Source: Dendrolimus kikuchii (Eukaryota > Arthropoda > Insecta > Lepidoptera > Lasiocampidae). From it: 64,000 bases of DNA. The DNA lies in the NCBI GenBank assembly GCA_019925095.2, contig CM034406.1, forward strand, positions 6,302,388 through 6,366,387, in the 5' to 3' direction. The position numbers and the translations under genes are program-made. Shown here one piece after another: positions 18,156-52,000 of this stretch. The notes under the pieces were generated by a model, which was given only the letters and a program-made list of their open reading frames with translations, was not told the origin of the DNA and did not search any database. The stretch's first letter is position 1, and the number at the start of each line of letters is the position of its first letter.

Positions 18156-18218
<63 letters not shown>

Positions 18219-21200: not shown

Positions 21201-23189
21201 GATGATATTAGAGTATGGATTACGAAGAAGAAGCAAATTATAAACGGGAAAAATACGTAACTTTATTCCTTTATTTCTAGATAATCGTAGAAAAAACTGA
21301 AGTCAAAGACAACTTTTACTTATTGGGATATGAAAATGGTGTCGCAGTGGCTTTAGAAATAGCCGCCATTTTGGAAAACAGTGGTAACTTTATGTTTATT
21401 ATTCATGACATGAGGTGAAGAATCTGGGAGTCCGACTCTACTAGATCTATCTATAGTTTTTAACGCCTTAGAGGTCTTGTGTAATGAAAGGGCTGGCCTA
21501 TATTTGAAACAATGCATGTCGTTCTCAACCAATGTGCAATTTGGGGTAGCATTTTGGGAATGCTACCCGCAGATAACATAGTTTGCTTTTAATTTTCCTA
21601 TTTTATTTCAATTTTATTATAAACAATCTAATACAATAAAAGAAAACTTAATTTATTTATATTGTATTCTACCCATAGTCACTCAAAATTATAAGTAGAA
21701 TACTGAGCCTAGATCATCGTCTTCTACGGGTAGGGTGCTCAGAAGGCTGGCTACGTTTCTTCGCTGGATCGCCACACTGATCCGTTGCCCAAGGTAGGCA
21801 CCAGCCTTCTGATCACCTTTTTTTTGTCGACGCTGAGGGAATGCATTTGCGCATATCTTCAGGCCCCGGGGAAGACCACCAAGGGATATGTGAAACTCCC
21901 GGCTGCTGGTGTTGCAAATAGGCTTCACATTAGAGCTTGCTAACACCGACCGCCAGACTACCCACTAAACCTGCCAGCGTCCTTCCGAATCATAATGAGG
22001 CGCCACGGAATCGTATGGTATGGCCATGGGTAACCATGACTATGACTGCCGTGACACCTCGGTGCAAGCCGTCAAGGAGGGGTGTCCCTGGGATTAGAAC
22101 ACCCTACGGCACTGGATGTGGCTCACCGGGAGGGGCCCCCGACCCCCCAGACCCACTACGTTATCAGGAGGAGATGAGCAAAACGCCGCCTGCGAACCTC
22201 TGTTCGCCGTCTGCGACAGAGGTCCACCTGCTCATACTCCTTCCTTATTCTTTCGGCAGCTTTCTTCTGAGACATAACGTTCTTGTAGAAGGAGACAACC
22301 GCATTTCACTCGCTTTGTAGCATCCGTTTGACCATGTCGGACAGAATGAGATTGCTACCGATGACTGACATCAGATCATGCCGTTGGGGTCCCCCCCCCC
22401 CCCCCATGCGGCACATTCTTCCAGCGTATGGCGCACCGTGTCGACTGACGCAGTCTTATGATCATCTGAAGAGTCAATGATTCGTTTTGAGTCATAATTT
22501 TAATTATAATTTAGTTGTTTCTGAAAATTTGACCAATACGTATTTGTGATGATTTATTAACATGATGTTTACTTTATGCTGTTTACATTTTTTAAGGTTA
22601 TACTGGGACCGTATTCTGCGTCGGTTGTCTACCGGAGGAGTTCAAATCCATTATAGAAGAACAGCTCGATGAATATAAAACAGAGGAGCAATTACAAGAT
22701 GCCGTGTTACGGCACATGTACGGGCTCATGACTAAAGGGAATTGTAGCTTTGTGGAGGAGATATTGGAGAGCATGTCAAGTTGGGGGGACAAGGTAGAGG
22801 CGTGCGTTCGGGCTCTGTTGGGACAAGTGTCTCACTCGGCGCAATATGCGCGCGCGCTTATCGAGGCCGCGTACGCACGTATACTGCGGGCTGGAGAGTA
22901 TGAATGGCGGCTGAAGCCTCTGCGCTCGCGGCTGGTGTTGTTGCGTGCAGGTATCCCCACCAACCCCGGCACTGATCCCGCGCCCCTAAGTAGCTACACA
23001 CTGCAAACGCCACTTCAGTACCAGCTCTCCGCGCCTTTATCGCTTGTCCTTAACGATTTGCGCTGTGCATCTATCATCAATCGGCATTTGGACCCAACTA
23101 TTATTGAAGAGTTTAAAAATAAAAATCTATGCGAAACTTATTTATTAAATAACGATACTTTTATGAACACCGATATAAATACCGACTAA
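1845..23189 (+). CDS. Gene A: type I fatty acid synthase-like protein, 3' part (spliced, 16 exons)
   Basis: The joined exons give the C-terminal 952 residues, in frame to TAA at 23187-23189. Exons: 1845-1982, 3525-3637, 5303-5474, 6295-6469, 8075-8187, 8890-9054, 12460-12632, 14048-14206, 14373-14588, 14661-14775, 15257-15404, 15908-16058, 19577-19724, 20303-20479, 21281-21383, 22597-23189. Domain order is ER, KR, ACP, TE, as in cytosolic animal FAS, and the length from ER to the end is close to normal. Phases match at every junction; one intron (16059-19576) uses a GC donor. The ER nucleotide loop (GGAGAMG) is kept, but the KR glycine-rich loop, the ACP attachment serine and the TE nucleophile are replaced, so complete FAS activity is very unlikely. 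The 5' half lies before the window. Family assignment is firm; pseudo-enzyme status is inferred from motifs. Confidence 0.93.
2028..2168 (+). mobile_element. 5'-truncated RTE-like LINE tail with target duplication
   Basis: A 141-base insert encodes the end of a LINE ORF (CMTRVMNVKEASEVC-like, then VVRAYPARELA-like) and finishes in GTAT repeats. It is flanked by TACAAAACTCCCC at 2015-2027 and 2169-2181. The matching gene B intron (about 63915) has the site without the insert. Confidence 0.8.
2711..3478 (+). repeat. Interspersed repeat starting CTAGCTGTGCCCGCGAC
   Basis: The start resembles the common insect repeat seen again at 30203 (+) and, inverted, near 6632. The segment CCTTTCTCGATAAATGGGCT...GAGATTAGCGCGTT occurs at about 2819-2897, and a degenerate version at about 3355-3430. 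The element ends TTTATAATATTATAGTATAGAT. Class not determined. Confidence 0.5.
3525..3637 (+). CDS. Gene A exon: ER domain start
   Basis: Phase 0 to 2. Encodes a YAGIND...GMDFSG segment matching the N-terminal part of the FAS enoyl reductase, where YAS/AxNFxD and GxExSG are usual. Confidence 0.92.
3638..4760. other. Gene A intron without recognised features
   Basis: AT-rich intron between the 3525 and 5303 exons. I see no coding signal. The stretch after 4490 (TAGGTGATGGTAACCGCTTTCCATTAAGTAGGCC) is an inverted fragment of the 320-bp family. Confidence 0.5.
4770..5092 (+). repeat. 320-bp interspersed family, copy 1 (+)
   Basis: Pattern: T-rich start, GAGTTCAGCAGACA, GACGGCCCACTTGA, GGAGACTGGAACCTGGTCAC, CCGGAACACAA, GACCAGGGGTGGTAGCCATC, CACCTGGCTGTGGGTTG, CTTACGACAGGCCGCCCGG, and an end at TTTCTCCGTTCCTGCATGGATAA. 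The same order recurs at 30900-31208, 35237-35466, 46705-46905 and 60972-61300 (+), and at 12702-12925, 27160-27255, 32570-32880 and 46462-46692 (-). No inverted ends or coding capacity seen; non-autonomous, class uncertain. Confidence 0.85.
5303..5474 (+). CDS. Gene A exon: ER domain, middle
   Basis: Phase 2 to 0. Encodes SGQRVMGLV and WTLEEAATVPLAYLQA, a hallmark of FAS and polyketide synthase ER domains. This exon is strikingly GC-rich compared with its AT-rich introns and with later gene A exons. Confidence 0.93.
6295..6469 (+). CDS. Gene A exon: ER dinucleotide-binding segment
   Basis: Phase 0 to 1. Encodes VLVLGGAGAMGQASIRVAL, with a GxGxxG-type NADPH-binding loop, then FGYKVFTTVSNASKNKFL. 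An in-frame stop upstream of 6283 places the acceptor at 6293-6294. This is the one reductase cofactor motif still intact in gene A. Confidence 0.92.
6520..6632 (-). repeat. Fragment of the CTAGCTG-start repeat
   Basis: It ends GTGGGTGAAGCCGCGGGGAA then AAGCTAGTT, the reverse complement of the start seen at 30203 (CTAGCTGCGCCCCGCGGTTT). Confidence 0.5.
6640..8070. other. Gene A intron without recognised features
   Basis: AT-rich sequence with short open frames only, for example 6893-7219 with low-complexity composition. No homology or repeat structure recognised. Confidence 0.4.
8075..8187 (+). CDS. Gene A exon: ER domain
   Basis: Phase 1 to 0, acceptor TTTCAG and donor GTAAGA. It encodes SHMVLNRTNGRGCTVVITC, corresponding to the FAS stretch HVLxxTxGxGVDLVLN. 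The usual LNSL after the strand is replaced by ITCAKGAL. Confidence 0.88.
8399..8645 (+). repeat. tRNA-derived SINE, copy 1
   Basis: The head resembles a tRNA gene: a box A-like TGGTTGAGCGGGATAAGCC and a box B-like GGGTTCGATTCCTGG about 45 bases apart. A conserved non-tRNA body follows (TTATTCACTATGGTCTAGGT, GATCGGCCCCGGAGTAGTCC, CCCATAACTCAAGCGTAACT). A second copy lies about 1 kb downstream. The anticodon arm does not form a normal tRNA. Confidence 0.75.
8890..9054 (+). CDS. Gene A exon: ER domain
   Basis: 55 codons, phase 0 at both ends. It encodes LQCCAPGGVVFDLVQVP, in the place of the FAS segment RCLAxxGRFLEIGKxD, followed by SLPMGLLTKDRSYLAVDIAS. Confidence 0.9.
9380..9612 (+). repeat. 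tRNA-derived SINE, copy 2
   Basis: Same family as 8399-8645: CTCTGTGGTTGAGCGGGCTAAGC head, GGGTTCGATATCTGG box B, GAATCGGCCCCAGAGTGGTCC body. Same orientation, in the next gene A intron. Confidence 0.75.
9640..10290. other. GC-richer block, probable unclassified repeat
   Basis: Base composition is clearly different from the surrounding intron (runs such as GGGCCATGGGAAGG and CTTCCACCCCTGGAGC). The end (about 10195-10260) contains a loose palindrome around GCTGTGTTAGGAGCTAACACAGC. The open frame at 9761-10186 (-) has no recognisable motif, so I call no protein. Confidence 0.35.
10443..10579 (-). mobile_element. RTE-like LINE tail, minus copy
   Basis: Begins with TACA repeats and reads inversely to 2028-2168 (ACTTCACGCCAGTTCCCTTG, GGGTAGGCACGAACAACAGA). 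Confidence 0.75.
10917..11975 (-). pseudogene. LINE ORF1 with FP25K-like domain, one in-frame stop
   Basis: Read leftward from 11975, the frame encodes a cysteine-poor PHD-like end (STWYCPACKKRE), an acidic region and a coiled coil (ARVETLEHSATELEQPVNLD). A conserved domain follows (LEIRNIPEEADENPKHLVTL; SGKPQRFYANERLTRTNSHL; RLAREVDRQNGWQFIWTRRG). I recognise this as similar to the FP25K-type domain found in ORF1 proteins of insect non-LTR retrotransposons. A TAA at 11580-11582 splits the frame, and the two halves share one frame. No reverse transcriptase follows. Host gene function is unlikely. Confidence 0.75.
12126..12142. repeat. AT microsatellite
   Basis: Uninterrupted AT dinucleotide run. 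Confidence 0.8.
12460..12632 (+). CDS. Gene A exon: end of ER domain
   Basis: Phase 0 to 2. It encodes FVCPLSRICFSPTEVSRAFR and then ASGHRGRVLIKL, the typical C-terminal end of a FAS ER (PLxxxxFxxxxxExAFRxMAxGxHIGKVVI). Confidence 0.93.
12702..12925 (-). repeat. 320-bp interspersed family, diverged minus copy
   Basis: Inverse of the family consensus: GGCGACAAAACAACCCACAG, CCAGGTGTTAGGGCATTTGCC, and a degenerate CCCGGTATCAGTCCCC-type stretch. It sits just after the 12460-12632 exon. Confidence 0.75.
13325..14030. other. Intronic block, possible LINE 3' end
   Basis: Starts CAAAAGACTTTATTCAAAATAAG and contains GCGACAAGAAACTCCCCAGC, phrases that I associate with inverted insect LINE 3' tails. 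No coding part is present. Confidence 0.3.
14048..14206 (+). CDS. Gene A exon: degenerate KR domain start
   Basis: Phase 2 to 2. In a working KR this exon should carry the TGGxGGxG NADPH loop. Here the stretch reads CHILLCNRDIIGIQFVERLI, so the glycines are gone, while the next helix and strand (ERLISRGVRNLRM) still look like KR. Confidence 0.87.
14373..14588 (+). CDS. Gene A exon: KR domain, middle
   Basis: Phase 2 to 2. It encodes WEKLGVQVDVSTQNI and VEGIYVIATDVNES, matching the KR pattern of a G-V-x-V strand followed by a GGVFHLA-like strand. A helix ending in SRKTCPYLK matches the usual S-R-x-x-C-P-x-L segment. Confidence 0.9.
14661..14775 (+). CDS. Gene A exon: KR active-site region
   Basis: Phase 2 to 0. 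It starts HFAIVCDNQDIGQQTY. The KR Ser (in the SSVSxG position) is absent. The Tyr in GQQTY may correspond to the catalytic Tyr of GQxNYG. The exon is shorter than the usual KR end. Confidence 0.85.
15257..15404 (+). CDS. Gene A exon: KR-ACP linker
   Basis: Phase 0 to 1, acceptor CTGACAG and donor GTGAGA. Low-similarity linker ending PRVPLLERLTSIT, in the position of the helix that opens the FAS ACP domain. Confidence 0.83.
15908..16058 (+). CDS. Gene A exon: degenerate ACP domain lacking the attachment serine
   Basis: Phase 1 to 2. The ACP fold pattern is visible as VCLEDLSNNATNVAAISALL followed by DYYGVSLTEE and LNLSLARL. The position of the conserved G-x-D-S motif reads S-N-N-A, so the phosphopantetheine serine is Ala (codon 15967-15969). 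The exon ends AG before a GC donor (GCAAGT). Confidence 0.88.
16360..18225 (+). mobile_element. Non-LTR retrotransposon (Jockey/CR1-type) reverse transcriptase fragment
   Basis: Reverse-transcriptase blocks occur in order across several frames: SNAVGSDGISCNMVLP, then SNFRPISIFP, a QSDFHPGHSTATALVQITDD region near 16915, IPQGGFLSPLLFIIF, then SYHLYADDLQFYTQ with the catalytic AD-D at about 17265-17285. A C-terminal part (VSEKVKNLGVIFDRVLSWRP) lies at 17427-17912. Frameshifts and stops break it. The 3' end runs into a TATG/TA/TG microsatellite at about 18150-18220. It lies inside the GC-AG intron of gene A. Confidence 0.88.
18395..18535 (+). mobile_element. LINE 3' tail ending in TATC repeats
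   Basis: It begins TTATTCCTGCCACGAGTTGT and ends AATAAAGTGTTATCTATCTATC, a polyadenylation-like signal followed by a short tandem repeat, as at LINE 3' ends. Confidence 0.5.
18600..19395 (-). mobile_element. Jockey-type LINE C-terminal fragment, minus strand
   Basis: Read leftward, the fragment gives WGDANLVTFNAS-like and LGISLTPTLNSGTYIE pieces. Then comes the frame 19034-18819 with YARLQSLEHRRQVLGLSVFY and LHELIPSSPFYHRTSRRNGL, typical of the end of insect Jockey-like polymerases. Several frame breaks. It lies in opposite orientation to the neighbouring LINE. Confidence 0.8.
19577..19724 (+). CDS. Gene A exon: ACP-TE linker
   Basis: Phase 2 to 0. It starts with LKEIER, completing the ACP C-terminal helix, then an acidic linker. 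Reading-frame continuity with the next TE exon supports it. Confidence 0.87.
20303..20479 (+). CDS. Gene A exon: TE domain, N-terminal part
   Basis: 59 codons, phase 0. KYLYIIPGMEGHHEKFRNI fits the first strand and oxyanion region of a FAS thioesterase (PxFxxHxxEG), followed by LVLQPGLDRPQETIQELAQR. Confidence 0.9.
20699..21185 (+). mobile_element. Probable solo LTR (gypsy type)
   Basis: The block starts TGTTACGAC and ends CTCGTAACC, a near inverted end pair. Short ATAT flanks on both sides (ending at 20698 and starting at 21186) would be the target duplication. Internally it has a TATAAAA box at 20931 and AATAAA near 21129, in LTR order. No internal retroviral-type region lies next to it, so it is a solo LTR in the intron before the TE nucleophile exon. 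Confidence 0.6.
21281..21383 (+). CDS. Gene A exon: TE nucleophile elbow without serine
   Basis: Phase 0 to 1. FYLLGYENGVAVALEIA aligns with the FAS TE elbow (GYSxGxxVAFEMA). The catalytic serine codon is GAA (Glu) at 21332-21334, while the helix after it is well conserved. Confidence 0.92.
21647..22320 (-). mobile_element. LINE 3'-end fragment (IQRGN-tail family), copy 2
   Basis: Minus strand frame 21946-21689 encodes GAYLGQRISVAIQRRNVASL, the end of a LINE polymerase, then the TATTCTAC tail at 21660. Beyond about 21830 the GC-richer stretch, including NTSSREFHISLGGLPRGLK, may belong to the same or another element. Confidence 0.7.
22391..22405. repeat. Poly-C tract
   Basis: Fifteen consecutive C, unusual in this AT-rich intron and prone to sequencing-length error. 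Confidence 0.9.
22597..23189 (+). CDS. Gene A last exon: TE C-terminal part and stop
   Basis: 198 codons including TAA. It encodes the helical lid and the end of the TE, with a GC-rich middle. LRSRLVLLRAG marks the strand that carries the triad acid region. Where a D-H-R motif would supply the catalytic His, the protein reads N-D-L-R-C, so the His also seems lost. A non-conserved tail of about 30 residues follows. Confidence 0.92.
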
Positions 23190-33925: not shown

Positions 33926-34066
33926 ATGGCACCAACACCCCAAGAACACCAGAGCAACGCGTGCGATTCTTCGTTAAGCGGGGAGCGGGTCGTCATTTCT
34001 GGAATTTCTGGAATCTATCCGAGCGCACGCAATGTCAAAGAATTATCCAACATACTATATGAAAAG
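33926..34066 (+). CDS. Gene B first coding exon: KS start
   Basis: 47 codons, ends phase 0 at GTAAAT. A short non-conserved leader is followed by RVVISGISGIYPSARNVKEL, the classic FAS KS opening (VVISGxSGxxPES). Upstream untranslated exons cannot be excluded. Confidence 0.93.
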
Positions 34067-37000
34067 GTAAATTAAATTTATTATTTAGTAATTAAAATTC
34101 CATAAATAATCTATTACTATAAAAGAAAAATTTACTTATTTATATTGTATTCTACCCATAGTCCTTCAAGACTATAAGTAGAATACTGAGCTTAGATCAC
34201 CGTCTTCTACGGGTAAGGTGCCCAGAAGGCTGGCTACATTTCCTCACTGGATCGCCATACCGATCCGTTGCCCGAGGTAAGCACCAGCCTTCTGATCACC
34301 TGAAGAGGTAATGAGTCGTTCTCATAAAATAATTAAATAGATGTGCATTAGGGTATTCCTCTGTAAACTGAACAAGTCATGGGACTTGCTCAGTTTACAG
34401 AGAAATACCCTGAGACCATTCTAAGGCCAATATTATTTACAATAATTTACTTGTGTAGATAAACAAGAATACATTAATTATGTAACTTGATCTCGATATA
34501 TGTAAATTGAGTTATGAGTACCATGGCATTTAGAATACATCGACGATCGGAGTCGAGATTTAAACAAAAATGCTGCCTGCTGAAATCAAACGATGGGTGT
34601 AATCATTTTATTAAACAATTTTCGTCAAGCTTTGACACAAATTGGACTTCCTAAAGAACGGATTGAAAATTTAATTTTTTGCTTTTTAGTTTCCCTTAAA
34701 GTCTGTTTTTTTTTGTTAGAATTTTTTTATATAAAATAGATAAATACATCTGTAGAAGTAAATCTCGCGAAAAGTTTCTATATCATATACAAATAGTGTA
34801 ATGTAATAAATTGATGGGTTTGATTTAATTTAAAGTTTATTTGATTATTTGTTATGCTTTAAATTAAAGATTGATTTTAAAAATGTTTTTTTTTACTATT
34901 AATTTCATAGGTCATTAATTAATTTTGTAAAAATATTAATTGGAAAACTATATATGCCGTATTTATTCAAATATTTTAAATTCGAATACCCTAAATAACT
35001 TATTACGTCACGTACATGGAATAATTTATTGCAATTAGCAAGGTTAAAACTGAGTACTCCATGTACTACGTGCCAAAATCCGTCAATACAGGAAATAGAA
35101 AACCTTCAGAGGTGCATATACGAACATGTTCAGAATATACACAGGTTACAAATATTATCACGTAGCATTTAAGATTTCTGTAATATAAAATCTTAACTTT
35201 AATGTTAAATTATTTAAGCAATAATTACATTTTATTTTTTTATTGCATGAGATCAGCAAACAGGCAGACGGCCCACTTGATGGAAAGCGGTTACCATCGC
35301 CTATGGACATTTGCACCACCAAAGTTGCTACAAATGCGCTGCTGCTCTCTTAATGGAGACTGGAACCTGGCCACTAATGCCGGAACACAACTCAAGGTTG
35401 TTATAGCGACATACTTTAGACTAGGGGTGGTAGCCATCCAGTCGAGCGAATACCCTACCACCTGGAAACATACAGAGTACAAGATCTCATCGTATTATTT
35501 TGTCTCCCCTCTAGGGCGATTGAGCCGTGGTGCGTCGCCCTATCGAACGGGGTAACCATCATTGACGCAGCACACAACCTTAATCAACCTCCACATCACT
35601 CTTATAATTTTTATCTATTTTTTTTTATTGTATATAAATTACAAATTAGAAGTCAGCACGTTTTTTAATACTACCGAATTAAACATTTCACATATTAATG
35701 TGTCGTTTTGTCATCGGTCTGGTTATACATATCCGCCATCTTTAGTGCGGTTTCAAGAACAATTTCGTTTATTTCTTGTTATACTTTTGTTGCTTTTGTT
35801 GTTCTTGTTAAGTATCACCTTGGGTACGTTCCATTAGGGACTCACAATAACCATGTTCACGACCGCGATTTATCCCGTTCTACTTGCTTGCCGGCGTTAC
35901 AATTGTAAACCCAAGTGGAACGGCTATTCGACCCGCGTATTGACATGGACATTCATTGTGAGCGTTGTGTGATCGAAAATGATGACGTCATTAGTGACGT
36001 TTTCGCCACGACCACAACGACGGCTGCTGCCTTGTGGAATGGCTTACTTAGTATTTTGCATGTTGTGAGCTACAAATGGAACGCCCTGCTTGTGTTACGT
36101 ATTTAGTCATTTGTTTTTTGCTTGCCTTCTGTTATATAACGAATAAACGAGACATTCGTAGGCAACCTACATGTTAAATAAAAATAAAGCTGGAGGAACA
36201 CTGTTTTCCTTGTTCACACTTTGTCTAATGTTAAGATGGTTGGTATAGAGCTAACACCACGCGCGCTGCGCGTTGAGCGTCGCCGCATATCTACAGAAAG
36301 AGGGTAAGCAACAAAATTACCTACCTGTCTTACGTACCTTATATTAGGCAAGGATTGAACAATCACACTTTTTAATAATGTTTAAATATCTTAGTGAAAA
36401 TAAGAAATAGCTAAGTTTCATATACATACTTATTATACCTTTACGGTCACAGTTGAAACCAACCTGATTTGAAGTAATATGATAAATGAAACGATTAATG
36501 AATGAATCGAAAAAAAGATGCGATCGCAGCGCCATATTTTTCGCTATTTTCGTCTATCCCACGGAAACGACGTCTTTTATCGGTATAAAAAGTATCCTAA
36601 GTTACACCCCGGGATATAAGTTAGCTCTGTGTTGAGTTCCATTTAAACCCGTTTAGTATTTTTCAAGTGATGCTTTAACAGACAGTTAGATAGACAATAA
36701 TTCTAGAAAATGTATTTTCAGAATCTGCCGGTCCGAATTAGGCCCCATTTGATTTTTTCCACATTTTTAAACGCTTTGTACATACGGGAACTATTTACAG
36801 ATCGCAGAAAATGTTTTAGAATTAAAAATGTAATGTTTTATTTTGTTTATCTCGTAAGAAAAAGCAAGGCATACGCTTATACCATTATGGTCTAAGGGTA
36901 CACAGTTTATAGTGTTGCAATCTAACTGAGACTTAACTAATGTTATTATATTATTTACAGAAAAACCCGATAAACGATGAAAAAATGCGATGGAATTACA

Positions 37001-40000
37001 ACCATCCCGAGCTGTGCAATAAAACTGGTAAAGCGCCAGGTCTCAACCACTTCGACGCACAGTTCTTCAAAGTGCACTGGCGGCAGAGCAACAATATGGA
37101 TCCGATGAGCCGCAAATTACTCGAGCAATCTTTCCAAGCGATTTATGACGCAGGTATCTATATGAATGAATACGCTTTTGACTTGGATGACCTAGGCTTA
37201 TTATGCTACTTACACACGTAGAATACAACATAACTAATAGGGGTTAATGTTATTAGCCTGAGTTTTCTTTATTGTACTAATTTATGTTTTATATATCTAC
37301 TAGGACATTCCTGTGTCGGAATAAGCTAATTTTTATGCACCCGAACAACTTTAAATTACTCCCGGGAAAATTCCCGCGGGATTCCTGGGATATAAAGTAT
37401 CACACATTTTATTACATAAAATTTGCTATTAATCCGTATAAAAATCGCATTGGAATTCGTTTTTGTTTTTTAATCTGCCCAATTTAAATCGTTCCCAGAA
37501 AAAAATCCCGCTGGATTCCCGGGATAAAAAGCAGCTTATATTTTAAGTCTAAAAATTAGCTGTTTATCAGTGAAAACTGCATCGAAGTCGGCCTAGTAGT
37601 TTTTACATGAATCCCGAACAAAGAGACAAACCTACAAACAGACAGACAAGAAATCTAAAAAAATTACATCGTGTTCTCCGTCGTTTATACAGTCTATTAG
37701 TAGTAGTTAGCAGCTGTATATTACTTTTTTTTTATTTATCCTCTGTATGTGCCCGGATTTCCACAGAATACTGAAGGAATGTATCCGGGTATCCGAATAA
37801 AACCGCTGGTTAGCAAATAGCTCAACTTTGCGCGTCCGTTGTTGTGTATTCAAAAAGTAGGTAATAAATATGAATACATATAACTTACATAGCACGTAGT
37901 TTACGTCCGCTAGCACGCTGCACTTTACACAATCACAGAAATATAAGTTAAAGTTCACTGGGCCGGCCTTTGATATTGTTTTTATATAAAAAGTATGTTG
38001 AGAAGTTTAGTGTCCCAGGGTTCGAAGTGAAGTCTTGCAGCCGCGCCGTCGCCGCTGCATTTCGCGCGTACTCGGTGTTGGGGGGAGGGAGATAGACATA
38101 TATACACATTACTATAGTAGAGAGAGAGAACAGTATACTATGTAATGTATGAAAGTGTAATCTGGCAACCATGCTTGATTATCCCGCTTAAATAATAAAC
38201 ATCCCCCCGCCCGAGAAAGGCTAAAGCCTTTATCAACCAAAATAAAGAGCAAGTACAAAATGTCCTTTGACGAGGTCAAAGTATCCGAATATATAAAGTA
38301 ATAAAACAAAAATAAAATTCTAACTTCTAACCGCTACATTTAAAAATAAAAGGTAAATATTCTAATCAATAGGAAGTCGACTAATTTTAACGACAGGCCA
38401 TATGAAAGAACCTGACGAAGTCTTTAAAGTTACTACTGGAGTTACACCATCTTTTCCAGGCAGTAACCCAGAAATTCTTCCGCGTGCCCATTTTAGTGGA
38501 GGTAGATTATCCTCTTTAATGAGAACTAAGTCTCCAATCTTGGGTTGCTCAGTTGGCGAGGTCCATTTAGTGCGCATCTGAAGAGAGTGCAGATATTGCT
38601 CACTCCACCTTTTCCAGAAGCGTTGAGTCATCGCATGTAATAATTTATAACGTGACAAACGCGAAATGGATACCTTATCCCAAGTCTTTTCAGGCACTGC
38701 CACGAGAGGTCTGCCAAATAACCATTCTGGTGCCCACCATAAACGATGTGAGATTAACTCGTGGGCTCTACAACCACGACTAGCGACATCTGCCGGATTC
38801 AATTCTGATGGTAGATGACGCCACTTAATATCTAAACCACAATTTATAATCTGCGAAACGCGGTTTCCTTCAAAAGTTTGTAATAAGTGAGGTGACATCC
38901 GCAACCACGAGAGAGTTATAGTGCTGTCTGAACAACAAAATATTTCCTCTATATTAATTCTATACTTAATCGTTAAGTAAATATAATTTAATAATTTGAC
39001 TAATAATGCAGCCCCGCTCAATTCCATTTTGGGAATTGTAAGTTTAGATTTCAACGGCGCGACACGCGTCTTTGCCATTAACAAAGAAACTTTAACATTA
39101 CCCTTTCGATTTACCGACCTAATATAAACCGTAGCACCGTACCCAAGTTCCGATGCATCTGAAAATCCATGAAGAGAGCAAGCAGTCATGTTTTCTGCAA
39201 GTACAAAACGTTCCAGTGATAAATCTTTTAACATTGGCAAGCTTTTGCAAATGTCAGTCCATTCCGCAATAATATTTGGAGGAGGCTTATCATCCCAAGC
39301 GAGTTGTAAAGACCACAGTTTTTGCATAAGTACTTTACCCTGCAAAATAACTGGACTAATCCAACCCATAGGATCAAACATTCGCGCGAGAGTCGATAAA
39401 ATCATTCGTTTAGTACAACTTTTCTCTTAATCTATCGTTGTGTGGTAAGTAAAAGTATCTGCTACTGGATTCCATTGAATCCTTAAAATTTTTACAAAGT
39501 CTAAAGTATCAGAATCAAAAATATGAGGTTTCTCTCGATAATCCGCTGGGATATCTTGCAATAACCGTTTATCGTTGGATAACCACTTTCGCAATTCAAA
39601 CCCGGCGGAAGAAAGTACATCAACAAGATTCTGTTTCAACTTCTGAGCCTCTTTTAAATTGTTTGCTCCCGCTAAAATGTCATCAGTATAGACTGAAGTT
39701 CTAAGAACTTGAGCAACGTCAGGATACTCCAACTCAGAGTCATCCGCAAGTTGTCTAAGTGAACGTATAGCCAAATACGGACTTGACTTTAGACCATACG
39801 TAACCGTATTTAATTTAAAAAGTTGCAATGGAAGTTCAGGAGATTCCCGCCAAAAAATAAGCTGATATTTTTTATCATCCTGATGAACTTTTATCATTCT
39901 AAACATCATTTTAATGTCACTAGTGATTACCACTTTAAATAACCTAAATAAACAAATTACCTTCATAATGTCCTGTTGAAGTTTTGGACCCGCATGCAAA

Positions 40001-43000
40001 CAATCATTTAAAGATACTCCTGAAGATGTACGGCAGCTTCCGTCAAATACACATCTTATTTTATCCGAGTTTGCTTTAAATATACCATGGTGTGGAATAA
40101 TGTAGCACGAATATTGAGGAATCTGAGTACAAGGAGTCATATGCCCCATATCCTGATATTCCTTCATGAATTGTACATATTTCTCACGCAGCAAGGTATT
40201 AGCCTGGAGCCGCTTCTCCATAGCAAAAAACCGCTTTAAAGCTTGCTGATTAGAGTCGCCTAACTTGGGAGCATCTGATAAAAAAGGTAATCGTACAACA
40301 TACCTCCCGCCTTCATCTCTCTCATAAGTATTCTTGAAGTAAGTTTCACACTCATCATCTTTTGGGTTTGCAAGTTTACCAGGTATTTCCTCAACTTCCC
40401 AAAATTTTTCCAACAGTGTGTCTGTACTTACATGAAACGACTGGGAAATATCCGCTTTTGTATTATTATTATCGGTGTATAACACCGGCCCCATAAGGAT
40501 ATAACCGAAAATTTTGTTCATGGCTAAAGGCATACCCTGAACCCGTACTATATCACCGTTAAGTAAAATTTCATTTATAGTATCCGCACCTAATAATATG
40601 TCAATTTTACGGCTTTTATAAAATTGGTTGTCCGCTAAATTTAGACCGCTATAATACTCTAGTAAGTTGGAAGGTAAAGAGCAACTTGGTAAATCACGTG
40701 AAATTTTAATAATAACTAAACCGCTTGTTATCTATATTTAGGACAGTAGAAATAAAAAAGGTTTTAATTTAATAAATTTTTCACATTTACTTAAATGATG
40801 TTGTAAGTTTTTACAATAAAAACATTTGCCCCCAAACGCATGGTCACCCTGGTTCGTGGTGGTTACATGCGAGTGCAACTTAGTTGAAACGGTTGGTCTA
40901 TTGATATTCGCAGTCGTTTTAATTTATTTAAATTAATGTGTAATAATAAGTAAGACTAAGATTATTTAGTCTTATGATTTGCAGTAAGAAACGTGTCAGC
41001 TTTATTAGAAAAAATAAAAATACAGTTATTTTAACAGTTTTTACCTTATATTTTACCTTATAAGTGTGTAATAAAAGTGCGTTGCAGACATGGCAAATGA
41101 CAGGTATGTATAAAAAGTTATATTTTACTCGTGAGTTGTTTTTTTCTGTGTTAATATCTAGTTGATAACCTTAACTTTTGTACTAAATAAATATTCTAGC
41201 AAAATAATATAAATAAATTACGTATAACTTGTTACAAATACTAGCGTACTATATATAGGACAGTAGGATAATATACATGATTTTAGTACAATAATACAAC
41301 TTTTTCTTTACAGACCGTTAGCTGCGCATGAAATTTTAGATGCTTTAGAAAATGTTTCTGATAATGAAGAAGATTATAGAGAACGACTGATATGTATTCT
41401 ACCTCCTCCTGTTGATCCTGACTGTCTCACTGACGAAGATTCGGGTGAAGAAGATAATGTAACTTTGAATAATTTGCCACGAAACATTCTGCTTCAACCG
41501 GCTGAAGTAATGATTCAAGGGCAGATTATGGTGAGTGATACAGAAGAAGAACCTTCTGATTCTACAGGTCGAACTAAACGTAGGCGTACCTACGCATGGA
41601 GAAAACGGGACTTGGCAAAAAATCCCGTGAATTGGCCAGATGTTCAAGGCGCTTGCCAAGATAAGCGCCCAATTGAGTGGTTTGAAAACTTCTTGAAAAA
41701 AAAACTCTTTGAAATCTGCCAAACGCTTCTCACAAAGTGAAAAGAGAAACATTGTCATAGAAGAACCACATATGGTGTCCATCTATAACAAATATATGGG
41801 AGGAGTGGATCGGTCTGATGAAAATATTTCACATTACCGAATTGGTATACGAGGTAAAAAATGGTACATGCCGTTGCTCACACACATGATTGATCTTGCC
41901 GAACATAATGCATGGCAGTTATATAAAATAAATCATGGAAAACTGGATCATCTTGGCTTTCGCAGAAGGGTAGCAATTGCTTTGATTGAATCAAACAGAA
42001 AAAATGCCAAAAGAGGGCCTAGCCGACCCTCCCATCATGAACATGCTGATAGTCGTAAAGACCAAATGAATCATCTGGTTATTCCTCAATCGAAGCAAAC
42101 ACACTGTCGTCAATGTCACAAAAAATGTTTGACACGTTGCAAGAAATGTGATGTTGGAGTGTGTGTCAAGTGTTTTGAAACATATCATTCATAAATAGTG
42201 TTAATCTAGTAAATTACATATAACAATGGGTAATATAATCAATAGTTATCTAATAAACTACACTTTTTGATTACATTCTGTTTTGTCATAAATGGTCTTT
42301 TATTTCCTCTTATTATCCTACTGTCCTACATATAGGACGGCTGTTTCCCTGAAAGCCTTACACTTAATTTTTTTTTCATAATTTTTTTTATGTTGCATAA
42401 GATCTAATAAACTAAATAATGTAACTTTTTTCAAAATTTTCATAAAATTTGTAATCTTTTATTACCATATCTAGAATTAAGAATGTCCAAAAGTACCGAA
42501 TAATTATCCCCAGTAATCGATAAGTGTTGTCCCAATGATTTTGCCTCCCCACCTAATGCACCAAATAAATAATACATTTTTTGAGTATCGGATAAGGTGT
42601 TTTGACTTCCAATGATCGATTCAAACAAATCGATAAAGTGTGCATAGTCCTCTATTTTTCCGGTAAAAGTAGGTATTTGCACCTTTGGTAATAAAGTATG
42701 TTGGTTAAAATTGACAGACATCTCTGGGCATTCCTGTTTAATAACATTTTGTGGAAATAATGACAAAAATTTCAATTTTACGGCATAATAAATATCCGTA
42801 ACCGAATTAAACTTTACTTTATGTTCATCGGAATTAAAGTCATCCGACAACTCAGCCTCCATTAAAAGATGCAATTCGACAAACTGCTCGTAATTACTGT
42901 CTAAATCCGCACATCGTAATTTAAACATTTGTTTTTGTTCAAATGTCACTAAGTCACCCTGACAAAGGGCATAACCGGTTTCCAAATAATTAATAACCAT

Positions 43001-46000
43001 ATCATATCGCAATTTATTCATCGAACTTCCCTTAACACCTTTATGAGTAGGCGCCATTTTAAGTTACAGTTTATATAAGTAGTACCCAAACAAATAAAAG
43101 TAAAGTCAATAATATAATTCCACCTTTTATTTCTAAACGAAACTAGCCGCTTCTATCCAATTCGTATCAACCGCCAAAGATAACAAACTGGATAAATAGT
43201 TACGTATAAATCCGCTAGGTGGTAATTACAAGTACAATAAATGCCCGTGCAAATTATTGAACCATGAACCCTGAGGTAAACAAAATGGTCGTATTTCCGC
43301 AAATATTCGCTAGGTGGCCCTATCCCGAATAAATTATAACAATATCAGAGCGCGCGAACAATGAATCTCAAGATGGCCGCTTAATGAATGAATGTGAATT
43401 GAATTATGCTTGTCATCATACATAAATAATTATATCAATATAGAAAGTTACGGATTTCCACAGAATACTGAAGGAATGTATCCGGGCATCCGAATAAAAC
43501 CGCTGGTTAGCAAATAGCTCAACTTTGCGCGTCCGTTGTTGTGTATTCAAAAAGTAGGTAATAAATATGAATACATATAACTTACATAGCACGTAGTTTA
43601 CGTCCGCTAGCACGCTGCACTTTACACAATCACAGAAATATAAGTTAAAGTTCACTGGGCCGGCCTTTGATATTGTTTTTATATAAAAAGTATGTTGAGA
43701 AGTTTAGTGTCCCAGGGTTCGAAGTGAAGTCTTGCAGCCGCGCCGTCGCCGCTGCATTTCGCGCGTACTCGGTGTTGGGGGGAGGGAGATAGACATATAT
43801 ACACATTACTATAGTAGAGAGAGAGAGAAGAGTATACTATGTAATGTATGAAAGTGTAATCTGGCAACCATGCTTGATTTTTAGCCATTACGGTCATTTT
43901 GGTCATTTCGGCCGCTTTGGTCATTTCGGCCATTTTAGGTATTTTGGCCATTTCGGTCATTTCGGCCATTTCGGTCATGTTGGAAATTTTGGCCACTTCG
44001 GTCATTTTGGTCAAATCGGCAATTTTAGTCATTCCGGCCATTTCAGTAATTTCGGTCATTTTGGACATTTCGGCCATTTTGGCCATCTTGATCATTTCGT
44101 CCATTTCGGTCAATTTGGCTATTAAATAAAAATAATATAAAACATCATATAAAACATTGAACTATTTTTTAGTACGGCAGTAATTAAAAATTGTATTAAT
44201 TTACGACACTTTATTGTTCCAGGGTTAAATCCAGATCATCTGTCTGGTAAAAAAATTGGAGTGTATGTCGGTTCATGTTTTTCTGAAACTGAAAAATCAT
44301 GCTTCTATGTAGCCACTATCAGGACAGGTTTCGGTATAGCTGGGTAAGCATTACAGAATAATATTAAAATCGTAATTAGGGACCTAAAGGCTTGCTATAT
44401 TTGGGGCAACGCATTCATTCATTTATTCGATGCTTAATGTACAATGTACATTCACATGAAATATAATTATACATTAACTCTTTTGGGGTATAACATGACA
44501 TGTAATTTATAAAATATTATAATGAATTTATATGTGTAATTGAAATTTAATCCTACTCTATTATTTGTTTGTAATCTTAATTATGTTCATTAATTTTATT
44601 CTTATAAAGTTATAGTTTATCATTTAAATAGTCTTGAAGAGAATAATATACTTTTTTCATTACGAACATTTTTAATTTGTTTTTAAATACGTTTATAGAT
44701 TTACCCATAGCAAAGATACTACTGCTATAACGAGTTGTCTGACAGGTTGGATAGCGTAACATGCTGTTGTGTAGGCTACCTATAAATGTCTTATAGCTTT
44801 TTAGATCTATCTGGATATATAAGCCAGCTTCATAAACGTATATAGAGGGAAGCGTTAGTATTTTTATATTCAAGAAATGTGGTTTACATGAATCTGTTTG
44901 TTTGTTTTAGTCCACAAATGGCGCAAACACATTTCTTTTGTGCCTTAAATGCCCTTTATTTATGCGTAGAGGTTGCCCAACAAAGGAAGCTATATGTCAA
45001 AGTCAATCCAAGAGACATGACGTCTATTGGATCTGTTGGATTAATATAGACATGATTTGACATATTATCATATATACCAAGTTAGTTGCAGCGACCTGAG
45101 CAACGAGCGTTCCCTTATAATTGATGTATATTGAATTAGATTGAGCGTTTTTATTTTTAAATATTATATAATATGTCTTTTCTAAATTAATTTTGATTTT
45201 GTTCATAACTAACCAGTCAATTATTTCAAATAAATTTTGTGTGTGTATGCAGTTTACAGGCAGTAGAAGTGAAATTTCATAGAATACACTCACAGATAAA
45301 ATTCTTCTTTAACTATTATTAATATAAATGTAATTCCTTTAGCCTACATCCGTAAACATATTATAATTCAAAATAAACTTCTTAAGTATCACTTTGAATT
45401 AAACTTCTTTGAAGAATGATTTGAAACGCGCTTAAATAGATTATTATAAGTAAAGCTGATTGTATATAAATCATTTATCCTTTCAATAATGTAAATACAA
45501 TACAGAAAATTATATATTATTTAAATGTACAAGCCATTTTATATAATGAACGATCCGTCATTAAAGATGACCTCCAGACATTGAAAAAAAAAATTAATAA
45601 AATTTATTTCGAAATTGCATGCATATCATCGTTGCCCATTACTGAAACCAATTGGGCTGGAGTTTGTAGCCAAACGATCCCCAGCTGTGGACGTCTAGGA
45701 CAGCTTCAGCGCCACGGAGAGGTGCTCAGTCTTTAGGCGAGGCTTTCCGGAATTGCTGCTCCAGTGTTGTATTCACATCCACTATAATTCTTCTCTAACA
45801 TTTATTCATCTTTATATCTTTATATATATTATAAAATTCTTCGGTGCGTGTGTATGTTCTTCTATTATAACTGAGAAGAAGAGTAGGTATAGCAATATTT
45901 ATATATTTTTTGTTGTGAGGTGGCAATGCTTTGTGAGTGCCACATAATTCAAGGATACATACTCAGTGAGTAACTCGGCGATTGTAAAATAGCCACTAAG

Positions 46001-49000
46001 TTGATCTTCTATAAACCGGGGTCGCAGTACAACAGCTCAACTAGCGCCACGATCTTGGTAGAGGCGGGGCCCACTTCCATATTGTCGGAAAGAATCAGTC
46101 CCCTCAGCCTCGTAAAAAGATACATCATAATAATTTACTGAATTGTAACTGTCATCATATTTATTTCTTTGATATAATTTTCCATACTAATATTCTAAAT
46201 GTGAAAGTAACCCTGTCTTCTGTCTGTGACGCTTTCACGGGAAACCCATCGTAATGAATTTGCTTGAATATGGTATATTTATAGACAGTCGCAACAGTAA
46301 GAATGGATGTAAGATATTTATTTATCCAAGGAAATAAGATGGTTTTCAGAACTAAAATTAAGTAAAATTTCCAACGGCAAATAGCGCCTAGATTAAAACT
46401 TAATGCAATGGAACCTCTGAGAATGCCTACCTTTAAAAATACTAATTAAAATTATTTAATTTAGCCAGGTGGTAGAGTATTTGCTCGACTGGATGGCGAC
46501 CACCCCTGGTCTAGAGTATGCCGCCATAACAACCTTGTGTTGTGTTCCGGCATTAGTGACCAGGTTCCAGTCTCCTTTAAGAGAGCAGCAGCGCATTTGT
46601 AGCACCTTTGGTGATGCAAATGTCCATAGGCGATGGTAACCGCTTTCCACTAAGTGGGCCGTCTGCTTGTCTGCTGAACTCCTGCAATAAAAAATAAAAA
46701 AAAAAATTAAGGGAGACTGGAACCTGGTCACTAATGCCGGAACACAACTCAAATTTGTTATGGCGACATACTTTAGACCAGGGGTGGTAGCCATCCAGTC
46801 GGGCAAATGCCATACCACCTGGCTGTGGGTTGTTTTGTCACCTCTTACGACAGGCCGCCCGGCCGCAGGAAATTGTATTCTTTCTCCGTTCCTACACGGA
46901 TAAAAATAAATAAAAATAAATATTTATAGTACATGAAAGCAAACATTTCAAAGATGCTATACGATTTAGAATGTTAGTAGAATCATTTGCCCGTATTTTG
47001 TGGTTCTTTTATCTCGGCTTCGGTAGCAAGGATAGACATTGTCTCGTAGTTACAATAATAACATGGGTACTTATTGCATTGATTCCAGATGTAATAAAGC
47101 GATGTTTGCGAATCGTATATCATATTGGCTCAACGTGAAGGGGCCTTCAATGGCTATAGATCAAGCTTGCTGCAGCTCACTTGCTGCACTGGAACTAGCC
47201 TATCTTGCTATTCAAAAAGGAGAGTGCGAAGCAGCCATTGTCGGTGGAGCTAGCCTTAGTTTACATCCACAGTCTTCAGTGCATATGTCAAGGTAGACGT
47301 AAAGATTTTTATCATTTATTTAATAAAGTTAGTTATAGTTTATATTATTACCCGACTACAGCAGGTAGGCTAACGGCGCAAATAGATATGGCCAAAATGT
47401 TTTCTGTGCTCAAATATTTATGTATAGCAATTTTCACGATGATCAGTCAGCTAGCTGTACAGAAATTAGTGCGCGACTGCACCATCTATTTATTTTTATT
47501 TTTTTACACACACTTTTACACACACAATTATAAAATAAATAGTAAGAAAATAGAAATAAAATAAGTTCTAAATTGAACCCAGTTCCAGCATATCGTAGAT
47601 AAAACAAGGCCAGGCTAAATAACAGTATAATAGAATAATAATTTAAAATAATGGATATTGGGTTCGTCAAGTGGTTTCTTAACTAGCTAATGTAAGAATA
47701 AATTACAACATCCAGGAAAATGCAGAATTTTTCCATGATAAAAGAAAAACGCACGAGGTGTCTTTGGGACATCTGGTTGCAACGGAGTTTCTTTCTCTGT
47801 ATCTAAATATATATTAAAATGTAGCTTAAAACGTCATTCTACATATAATAGTAACTTGTATCAAATACAGTAAATACTGTAGAAACTTAAATTAAAACTG
47901 CGCCATCTATGAAAGTTGCCCGAACTAATATATATGGATAATTAGTATACAACCAACATCAAAATACAGTAATATCGCGCATAATCCGCATTTCATTGCG
48001 GTTATACTATTATTGGTCAAGCTCCCAGGCGCCAAGCCTTTAGGCTACGTGCAATACGGAAGTTCATTGCAAAAGGGGTAGACAGAAAAATAATTCGCAT
48101 AACATGGATTTGAATCTAATTATCTCCTTTTTTAACAGGATCATGAAATTATCAGCTGATGGAAAAACTAAATCTTTTGACCAGGATGCTGATGGATGTG
48201 CAAAGTCTGAGGCAGTAAATGTGTTGTTCCTGCAGAAAGCAAAAGATGCATTACGGTATGTAGCGAACATTTTTGCTTGGAAACACAAAATTGTGAATTT
48301 GTAACTAATATTCAAACTTTTTAGGGTATATGCTGATGTTGTTTATGTCAAAAGTGAATTCACATCATTAATGGATGGAGAGCTAGGACCAAGATATGGA
48401 TTTTATCGGGATCCCGTAAAAATGGGCAATTTCTTAAAGAGTTTCTATGAACAAGCTGGAATTCCACCTCACATTATTGAATATGTTGAAGCGTATGGTT
48501 CAGGTAAAATAATATGTATTAATAAAACTGGAGTGTGTTTATATTTTTATAATAAACGCAAAATTCAATTGAAATTTGCTGTAAGATATTTAATGATAAA
48601 AAATGGATGTTCTTAGTTACGGAATTATTTATATGGGGGAATTCAATTCAGATTAATAGAGCATTTATTGCACAAAAGAAATGTATCAGAGCAATTACAG
48701 GGATCCATTTTTTAGATAGCTGCAAACCCTCATTTAAGTCTTTAGCTATATTATCTCTACCATGCTTATACAATATTAAGGAATATGTGTATTTGTAAAG
48801 AAAAATAGTGATAATTTTGAATTTAATGACAGTAAACATACACGAAGCATAAGAAATAAAGGAAAGCTAGTTTTACCAAACATTAGAATGTCGTTGTACA
48901 AAAATAATGTTTACTGCATTGCAATTTTAATATATAATAAGCACACATCTTAAAGAAATTAAAAGCATACAATTATTTAAAAGAAAGCTCTCAGAATGGT

Positions 49001-52000
49001 TAATTAACAGATGCTTTTACTCCCTTACAGAATATTTTAATTCTAAAAAACAATATTAAATTAATTAATTAATTGCAGATAAATAATTATACCTTAATTT
49101 ATGAATTATAATGATAATTTTTTAGACATTTGTTTTTTTTATTGACTAATTTATAATAATGTGATATTTTTTTGTATTATGTTTGTGATGAATAACAGAA
49201 AAAATTCATGACATGATAATAATAATATTATATAATGGCCAGGCAACATTATAAACTGCCTGTAATGCATGTTTGAAAGGATAAACTGTCGTTCCTACAA
49301 AGAACACAACATCTTATTAAAATTAAATGTATGTGACAGTTTATGCAATAAATGATATTCTATTCTATTCGTTTTTTTTTAAATTTTCGTCTTTGAGTAT
49401 GTCTTCAAGTTTATCTTGGGTGGGCTCCGAGAGAGCTTGACGGATTTCAATAAAAAAATGTAGATATTAAAACAGCAACTTCATCTCAAATTTTCTTCTT
49501 TTTAATTTGAGTAGCTTGTAAAATTAAAAGTCTCAAGGTTCAAATTGAGTGAAGTGGTGGGGCACAGATAGCATGAAAATATAACTCCAAAAGTGCATTT
49601 TAAATTTTTTTTATATTATTTTCTTAAAATCAAACATATTATTCGGTTATTGGTTACAGCTGTCCCGGAAGTCGATAAAGTTGAATTGGAAGCCATCGAT
49701 CATGTGTTTTGCTCGAACAGAACTGACTCTCTGCTAGTTGGTAGTGTCATGTCTAACATTGGTTATGCCGAAGCTGCATCAGGGATTTCTGCTGTAACTA
49801 AAGTAAGATTGGATAGTTAAGCATTATTTTTTAATGGATACATTTCGTGTTTAACATAAAAAAATATTTATACCTGATACTTTTTTTTAAATAATACAAA
49901 CGTGTTATTTAGGTATTACTGGGCTATCATCGCGGCGAACTTGCTGGGAATCTGCACTTTAAGACGCCCAGGCAAGATATTTTGGCACTGCGTGAGGGCA
50001 AGATGCGTATTTTAGATGACCACCAAAGCTTCCGACGTACATACGCAGCCGTAAATGCAATGTCGGTCACTGGTGTAAATGCACACGTTTTACTAAATGG
50101 CCGTTACAAGCCAAAGGTAATTTTTTTTTTTTACGAGAGGAAACTCGAGGCCCATCAGCCGCGCGATGGAGGAAACTCGCGGCCGGTGTGTGGGATTCGC
50201 CAAGTCGGGGTGGCACTAGCATCTCTAGGCAGAACTCAACACTATACAGTTAGGGATATCCACTAAAACCCGTTGGTATTCCGTCCTTCGCCCTTAATAC
50301 CAGGGCCACGGGTGTATGTCCTAGCTCTGCCGCTGTTCCTGGCATACGGTTTACCGGATTTAAGGGTTTCGTAAAAATAATGAACAGCTAATATTTTTGT
50401 CAAATGCTTTTGAAAACCCGAATAATATTTAGTAAGCATTTAATTAGAAATACATCATATTTCAAAAACCGCTCAACGCAGGTTGTTGTAGCCAATTTTT
50501 GTTGAAAGTAATTTTGATGCTTTACTACCTTGAATGAATGAAAGAAAATACTTTATTCTTTACCGAAAATTAAAACTACGTTTTTAAAAAATATTTACAC
50601 TAAATTTTGAACAAAGAGCGGCGTTGTTGCTTAAAGTGATCTCTTCCAGGCAATCCCCCCTAGACTAAGGAAATTATTAAAAGATGACAGTAATGACGTA
50701 GACAATAAATAACAGAATATACTATATATAATATTAAACATATCAACTTTATATACTATAACACATATCATAATACAAACAGCATAAGCAGCACTATTAG
50801 ACTTGAGAGGACCAAAAATAATTAGCAAGCATGAATTTGTAAGACGGTACTAATTTTGCTTGTCTGATGTTGAGTGATACCGAGTTCCATAAACAGTCAG
50901 CCTATACCGTGAAGGAATTAGCATCGAAGGAAGTAATGTGTACAGGTGTCATTAAGAAGGGATGACACCAATACACACTTCTTCCTTCACTTATTAGTGC
51001 AACATTCGGAAGGGACATACACATCATTTTTATGACTAGCTAGTGGTTTAATTGAAAAAGTCATTAAGAAACATTGTTATGATATTAACGACTATCGACC
51101 GAAATTAACACATAGTTACATGAATGGCAGCTATTCCTAATATTATTTTATTTCGCGAGTTTACTACCAAATTATGAAACGGCATATATGATTGATTTTC
51201 ATTTATTTTTATCTATAACATTCCTGGTATACTCGTCTACATGAAATTCAGTAGTCTCCGCCAAAAACGTATGTGAAGTACAAAAACAGACTAATGGATG
51301 AATACGACGATTTCGTAAGGGCCGGGCTTTGTCAAAAGAAACACGGAGCCTAAAAATGTAACTATATTTGTGCCAGAAAAATATTTTTATTAATCGTACT
51401 AGGTCATCGGTGTACTTATCAATTGATTACTAATTTTTATAGCAATAAGTACGTACTATATTAAAATAGGCCAATATAAAACTGTCCAAATTGATTTCTG
51501 TTATGTACTAGCAACCGCTGTGTATTGTCAGGATTTGAGCTCTGGTTTCTGAGTTAATCCTGTACTCAGATGTACCTAGCCTACTTTTGTCAATAACTAT
51601 GGTTGAAGAATAAAATTCACCAACGAAGTAGCTAGCGATTAAAATAGAATTTAACCAATTAGTTTAATATGAAATAGTAATTATTTTTTATAGGATCTCA
51701 ATAAATACAAATCTAGTATACCTTACTTGGTTACAATATCTGGAAGGCAAGAAGAAGCAGTGACCCGAATCTTTAATGATCTGAAAACACGTCCTATCGA
51801 CGCTGAAGAGATTGCGCTTCTCCATAAAATACATGAAATCAAAATCTCTGGCCACATGAGTAGAGGCTTTGCCATATTAAGTAAGCTCTAATAATGTTAT
51901 TATAAATATTTTAAGTGTATTTAAGAAAGAAAGAAGAGGCAAAGAGTGTTTAACATTGAATATTTTCGAATAGAGTTTCAAATTATCTTCCTGCAAATCA

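Follow-up and report, generated by a model that had tools for sequence, protein, structure and literature searches.

A lepidopteran fatty acid synthase paralogue without the ketosynthase His, Lys and His: a candidate pseudo-synthase with a conserved acyltransferase domain

Expansions of 'aberrant' fatty acid synthases (FASs) have been named in Orthoptera, Hemiptera, Coleoptera and Lepidoptera (Finck et al. 2016, PMC5039406). In the available passages of that paper, cluster III comprises FASs that lack a phosphopantetheine domain and in which the dehydratase (DH), enoyl reductase (ER), ketoreductase (KR) and thioesterase (TE) domains are altered, but not the ketosynthase (KS) and malonyl/acetyl transferase (MAT) domains; independent origins are proposed, and larval RNA interference against Tribolium TC000238, a protein of similar build, led to 100% mortality. 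The locust protein LmFAS3, assigned to ar-clade 3 (PMC10764717), has its main expression in the integument and has no acyl carrier protein (ACP) domain (PMC11855270). Arthropod AFPKs, a further kind of FAS paralogue, have been called from lower scores against FAS hidden Markov models (HMMs) together with KS phylogeny; KSs that scored from 500 down to 200 bits against FAS were treated as likely AFPKs, and the words histidine and cysteine are absent from the main text of that paper (PMC10764717). Here, we describe a FAS-like gene in a stretch of 64,000 nucleotides from the moth Dendrolimus kikuchii (GenBank assembly GCA_019925095.2, contig CM034406.1, positions 6,302,388 to 6,366,387; hereafter, the window). 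Its KS keeps the active-site Cys and carries Tyr, Met and Tyr in the columns of the other three catalytic residues, which in human FAS we take to be His293, Lys326 and His331.

The gene lies on the forward strand, with exon 1 at 33926, and continues past the right edge of the window, which holds 22 of its exons, all open. We spliced 21 of these by hand (36961–63869; AG/GT at each, consistent phases, 1146 codons, zero stops) and located exon 1 by tblastn with the annotated protein P0001 (K1T71_011146, D. kikuchii), which was the top database match with 100% identity across 810 scored residues. The right edge of the window cuts off the ER, KR, ACP and TE part of the gene, which was read from annotated P0001 and its relatives. 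The exons in the window, with the evidence for each, are as follows.

33926–34066, + strand: exon 1, start of the KS (MAPTPQE...ILYEK); tblastn of P0001, visible donor GTAAAT.
36961–37153, + strand: exon 2, KS; splice model and tblastn.
44223–44343, + strand: exon 3, KS; splice model and tblastn.
47089–47292, + strand: exon 4, KS, with the active-site Cys codon at 47168–47170 in DQACCSS; splice model and human FAS alignment.
48139–48255, + strand: exon 5, KS; splice model.
48325–48503, + strand: exon 6, KS, with the Tyr codon of the His293 column at 48494–48496 (EAYGS); splice model and human FAS alignment.
49660–49802, + strand: exon 7, KS, with the Met codon of the Lys326 column at 49749–49751 and the Tyr codon of the His331 column at 49764–49766; splice model and human FAS alignment.
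49913–50116, + strand: exon 8, end of the KS, with the gate loop MSVTG in place of FGFGG; splice model and family site comparison.
51694–51880, + strand: exon 9, KS-MAT linker (KAsynt_C_assoc); splice model and domain search.
52148–52307, 52806–52975, 54877–55028, 55175–55358, 55450–55598 and 55682–55866, + strand: exons 10–15, MAT; splice model and PF00698 (E 1.1e-75).
56504–56623, 56947–57056, 59380–59570, 60436–60596, 61641–61898, 62501–62612 and 63732–63869, + strand: exons 16–22, from the DH region (HVIRNKTLYP, IDSLLQ) onward; splice model and tblastn.

In P0001 numbering, the four KS residues are C179 (TGC), Y316 (TAT), M349 (ATG) and Y354 (TAT). In the alignment with human FAS (E 3.8e-236, query residues 4–1072), Tyr, Met and Tyr fall on the motifs EAH, STK and MGH with no gap among the three, and the 38-residue spacing is shared; these motifs and this spacing come from the alignment itself. 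Where canonical animal FASs have the KS signature Cys-His-Lys-His, this gene has Cys-Tyr-Met-Tyr. An earlier note on this DNA had described the same substitutions and considered the alignment, with Met at the Lys326 position, unambiguous, and both points are borne out by the splice model and the alignment. The residue numbers given there (192, 329, 362 and 367) have the spacings 33, 5 and 38 exactly right and are all 13 above P0001 numbering, presumably because a different first exon had been joined. As it covered the KS only, it missed the changed gate loop, the alteration of other catalytic domains and the MAT as the sole intact domain.

We then compared the gene with its relatives. The family search took the best 120 of 1722 proteins (E up to 1e-30) and a second search, started from a Plutella member, the best 120 of 3558, of which 10 were new; among the matches so listed, none came from outside Lepidoptera. 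The final family set of 128 proteins consists of 118 of the first 120 (P0062 and P0093, under 1500 aa, were dropped) and the 10 new ones. The canonical set held 112 insect proteins after removal of eight bacterial-type sequences (P0123, P0124, P0140, P0178, P0197, P0212, P0226 and P0228; 34–41% identity), and 110 once P0121 and P0122 (under 1000 aa) had also been dropped. What was analysed were the matches to the search query, not the query itself. Together, these 110 'canonical' proteins make up one side of the tree; they include paralogues, as well as copies in which the MAT is damaged.

Cys-His-Lys-His was found in 0/128 family members and in 109/110 canonical insect FASs. P0044 retains the first His and P0102 the second, and the other 126 have none of His, Lys and His. 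An earlier site table of 120 family versus 112 canonical proteins gave Cys in 113 versus 112, the first His in 1 versus 111, Lys in 0 versus 112 and the second His in 1 versus 112, and 0/120 family proteins had the full set. P0001 is one of four proteins of the same type with consecutive locus tags in D. kikuchii (the others are P0002, 011145; P0003, 011143; and P0004, 011144), and Cys-Tyr-Met-Tyr is present in all four. At the level of residues, these counts lend good support to the proposal that the KS is incapable of decarboxylative condensation. Orthologues with His/Lys/His had been named as the sign of an assembly error; because no examined family member has them, chance or assembly error is excluded. 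The replacements in the family are Tyr at the second His (119 of 128), Met at Lys (104) and Phe at the first His (84). Their similarity-weighted conservation (88%, 74% and 69%) is ordinary for the KS, at the 60th, 43rd and 37th percentiles of its columns. In the gate loop, the first Gly has given way to a Ser whose weighted conservation is 96%, at the 80th percentile. On the canonical side, the first KS His is Asn in a FAS of the ant Polyergus mexicanus (P0233), and its remaining three residues are intact.

The later domains of the family are also altered. The residues that we take to be catalytic in the ER, KR and TE were lost throughout or nearly so: ER Lys was found in 0/128 (gap in 3) and KR Tyr in 0/128 (column gapped in 126), whereas the TE columns contain Glu in place of Ser in 121 (Ser 2, Gly 1, gap 4), Gly in place of Asp in 120 (Asp 2, gap 6) and His in one (gap 127). 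The ACP Ser column is unconserved, with Ser in 18, a gap in 10 and 16 kinds of residue, and PF00550 at E up to 0.01 has no match in P0001, P0010 and P0037, while it is present in P0175. Judged by these residues, the proteins would perform no condensation and no beta-keto reduction via the usual Tyr, and would have no conserved carrier Ser and, in nearly all members, no TE triad. Two Plutella proteins, P0102 and P0241, keep TE Ser and Asp; the loss of the TE may be later than that of the KS, or may have been partly reversed. In the DH of the D. kikuchii gene, His and Asp are present (in HVIRNKTLYP and IDSLLQ) and the motif Gly is Asn.

The MAT alone keeps all of the catalytic residues tested. 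In this gene, Ser609 (GHSVGE), Arg (AYSRG) and His711 (AYHSR) are intact in exons 10–15, with the final few MAT residues in exon 16. In the family, each of the three is present in 128/128; the canonical counts are lower (Ser 102/110, Arg 83/110, His 96/110 with a gap in 7), which reflects the MAT-damaged copies among the canonical proteins. A mirror image of the family is seen in 8/110 canonical-clade FASs that have KS Cys-His-Lys-His and Ala, Gly or Cys in place of the MAT Ser: P0202, P0211, P0225 and P0234 from ladybirds, and P0208, P0218, P0229 and P0240 from Galleria and Achroia. Loss of the whole MAT domain is known from other insect FASs in the available passages of PMC5039406.

To compare constraint between domains, we used 45 pairs from ten species that we chose, one copy each, with domain bounds that we set. 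Mean identities in the family versus the canonical FASs were 79/84% in the MAT, 66/91% in the KS, 66/83% in the linker, 43/90% in the DH, 54/88% in the ER, 31/83% in the KR, 31/98% in the ACP (36 family pairs) and 48/64% in the TE. Within each of the ten species, family and canonical copies were on average 72% identical in the MAT and 46% in the KS. Columns invariant in canonical Lepidoptera were defined on 34 of the 44 proteins used for HMM scoring, leaving out the Galleria and Achroia proteins that lost the MAT Ser (P0208, P0218, P0229 and P0240) together with P0150, P0170, P0187, P0230, P0237 and P0238. The invariant residue is also the family majority at 127/133 such columns in the MAT, 158/280 in the KS, 48/120 in the DH, 70/132 in the ER, 28/124 in the KR, 16/55 in the ACP and 28/51 in the TE. 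Fixed differences between the family and canonical Lepidoptera number 2 in the MAT versus 22 in the KS, and the stem branch of the family has a length of 0.161 in the MAT and 0.785 in the KS. In Pfam, three members versus one canonical protein scored 254–257 versus 266 bits for the MAT, 180–198 versus 248 for the N-terminal KS and none versus 37 for the ACP. MAT scores against our own HMM overlap (401–493 bits in the family, 259–509 in canonical Lepidoptera), whereas those against our canonical KS HMM do not (380–498, n = 128, versus 758–813, n = 44). By protein conservation, the MAT is the constrained domain, with the KS next.

Each of three trees (KS+MAT, KS alone and MAT alone) unites the 128 family members in one clade with a support of 1.0; this is the support of the unrooted split, and a value of 0.074 for the family arose from re-rooting. 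With regard to the age of the duplication, the KS+MAT tree places the family beside 44 Lepidoptera-side and two caddisfly sequences (0.97), and in the separate KS and MAT trees its neighbours are unsupported (0.165 and 0.248). An AlphaFold model of the relative P0062, picked for its shortness, was built from an alignment of 52 sequences and has a mean pLDDT of 84.4; as a monomer model, it is silent on dimers. It matches the human KS-MAT structure 3hhd_A with a TM of 0.94 (normalised by target) at 2.3 A. According to this model, the KS still folds as a domain although its catalytic set is gone, and the FAS KS-MAT fold is kept in the relative.

We favour the explanation, with a probability of about one half, that the gene encodes a FAS-derived lepidopteran pseudo-synthase in which the KS is a scaffold and selection acts on the MAT, which probably works on a carrier supplied in trans. 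By its residues, the KS would be unable to condense; it would be a folded scaffold and probably a dimer platform. By residues, the ER, KR, ACP and TE have likewise lost their catalytic positions in the family, leaving the MAT as the one domain with all tested catalytic residues and near-canonical conservation. The MAT Ser would be loaded from acyl-CoA (malonyl or acetyl), and the group would be passed to a carrier in trans, or the reverse reaction would be run. The nearest candidate carrier would be the ACP of a true FAS, whether within a mixed dimer or as part of a separate complex. In a more tentative generalisation, to which we give rather less weight, a tandemly multiplied class of lepidopteran FASs has been stripped to one malonyl/acetyl transferase on a dead FAS frame, and is an animal trans-acyltransferase of FAS descent.

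Several observations weigh against the pseudo-synthase explanation. A MAT without its own ACP depends on an acceptor outside the protein. The KS is conserved well above the KR or ACP, so it may do more than hold the MAT, and further activities are possible as DH His (93/128) and Asp (122/125) and two of the three ER nucleotide-loop Gly (120/128 and 122/128) are largely kept. TE identity is not much below that of canonical FAS. Finally, the choice of species, the domain bounds and the canonical set were all our own selection.

The alternative that survives best, although we consider it unlikely, is a non-enzymatic partner that dimerises via its KS with a true FAS, whose amount or activity it modulates, or that senses acyl-CoA, with the MAT kept as a binding site instead of an enzyme. 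Animal FASs dimerise through the KS, and both the KS-MAT fold of the P0062 model and the many canonical-invariant residues that the KS retains despite its lost catalysis are in line with such a role. A pure binding role, however, would not require Ser and His together, and the MAT Ser, Arg and His are complete in the family, above the canonical-clade counts.

Somewhat less likely still is a non-elongating KS, in which the KS Cys would accept an acyl group and hand it on without condensation. In the KS0 domains of trans-AT polyketide synthases, the hallmark is that the HGTGT His is lost with the Cys kept, and this combination is found here. The Cys is kept in 120/128 family members, with Asp, Gly, Ser or Thr in the other 8, and a Cys stands at the catalytic or the next position in all 128. 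The neighbouring Cys, which we considered as a substitute for the lost one, is indeed present in all 8 cases; however, with 8 and 12 losses at the two positions, 0.75 of 128 proteins are expected to miss both under independence, about as observed. The idea that Cys could still serve as an acyl acceptor stands as far as its retention goes. It gains no special support, because the conservation of this Cys is average (89% weighted, only the 62nd percentile among KS columns), the gate loop is rebuilt and the protein has no conserved phosphopantetheine Ser by which an acyl group could be delivered or taken up. Moreover, KS0 domains mainly lose the first His, whereas the family is also without the second His, Lys, the gate loop and a conserved ACP Ser, and is not part of an assembly line.

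We regard it as highly improbable that the family consists of specialised arthropod AFPKs that make unusual lipids by their own condensations. Low scores against FAS models are part of how AFPKs were called in the available text of PMC10764717, and the family KSs score low as well, on an HMM that differs from the model used there, so that bit scores are not directly comparable. Condensation, however, needs the residues that were lost, those of the ACP and KR have gone as well, and loss of function can explain the score; a low KS score against a FAS model can mean a dead KS. Least probable of all is that the tandem copies are pseudogenes in decay, or that the assembly or annotation is at fault. 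The tandem array, the intron transposons and the loss of several catalytic sites might point that way. We rejected both, given that the 22 exons in the window are open and bounded by good splice sites, with no stops, frameshifts or broken sites, that the same losses (0/128 with Cys-His-Lys-His) recur in proteins of many species and that the MAT and KS are strongly conserved.

The window also contains part of a neighbouring paralogue and several transposon pieces.

1845–23189, + strand: 3' half of K1T71_011145 (P0002), the tandem paralogue on the upstream side, covering the stretch from ahead of the ER to the TE and stop; tblastn of P0002.
38365–39426, 39430–40731 and 42443–43063, minus strand: BEL/Pao pieces with Peptidase_A17 and DUF5641, reverse transcriptase and DUF1759, respectively.
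41697–42191, + strand: DDE_Tnp_1_7 (piggyBac-type) transposase piece.
365–1048, minus strand: Mariner-type transposase, HTH_48 and partial DDE domain.

The tblastn search with P0002 gave 16 matching stretches (3525–23186), with 87–100% identity in 11; the first exon of this half (1845–1982) was assigned in our analysis and is absent from annotated P0002. An ACP-like remnant exon lies in this paralogue at about 15898–16053 and is missing from annotated P0001. The window holds DNA for a single pair of paralogous exons, 46 codons long. One synonymous and three other changes between them put dS at 0.037 and dN at 0.028, and so small a number of changes is uninformative. The BEL/Pao-type retrotransposon pieces (38365–43063) and the piggyBac-type piece sit in the intron that separates exons 2 and 3. 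In our splice model, the exon at 63732–63869 begins with SEIGNK, which is absent in annotated P0001, and the annotation seems to use a different acceptor.

We also considered SlFAS1 of Spodoptera litura as a family member. In the available passages of PMC9409488, this protein of 2079 aa is 35.63% identical to SlFAS2, has an ACP domain listed and, when knocked down, left palmitate unchanged and lowered triglyceride. Over whole alignments, seven family/canonical pairs were 32–37% identical and two S. litura canonical-clade copies 77–79%. The identity of SlFAS1 fits the family range, but with the listed ACP domain it could not be placed.

For many moths and butterflies, public data list members of this family under the label 'fatty acid synthase' or 'fatty acid synthase-like', and they may pass as lipid-synthesis genes. 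Going by their residues, family members would be unable to build a chain, and the protein probably does a job other than its name implies. If FAS paralogues of other insect orders also have a dead KS, arthropod FAS counts and KS-based polyketide-synthase calls need to be re-read. While 'aberrant' insect FASs were already reported in 2016 (PMC5039406), we found no report of a dead KS or of lost KS residues in these proteins in the accessible portion of the open-licence PMC literature. The function of a FAS without a carrier domain, a question that has stood since such 'aberrant' FASs were described in 2016 (PMC5039406), becomes testable.

Compared with canonical animal type I FASs, such as Bombyx mori p270 (P0175) and human FASN, the family is alike in its domain order, KS-MAT fold and intact MAT, and unlike in being without KS His/Lys/His, ER Lys, KR Tyr and the TE triad, with an unconserved ACP Ser. 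Like arthropod AFPKs, its members are FAS paralogues whose KSs score low against FAS models; unlike AFPKs, which are proposed makers of polyketides or unusual lipids in the available text of PMC10764717, they are without the condensing residues. By description, the family also resembles cluster III FASs: no PF00550 in the three members tested, and altered DH, ER, KR and TE. The passages available from PMC5039406 do not place the lepidopteran 'aberrant' FASs in that cluster. What sets the family apart from cluster III is a KS that is dead at the residue level, whereas Pfam, the level at which PMC5039406 worked in these passages, still recognises both KS and MAT.

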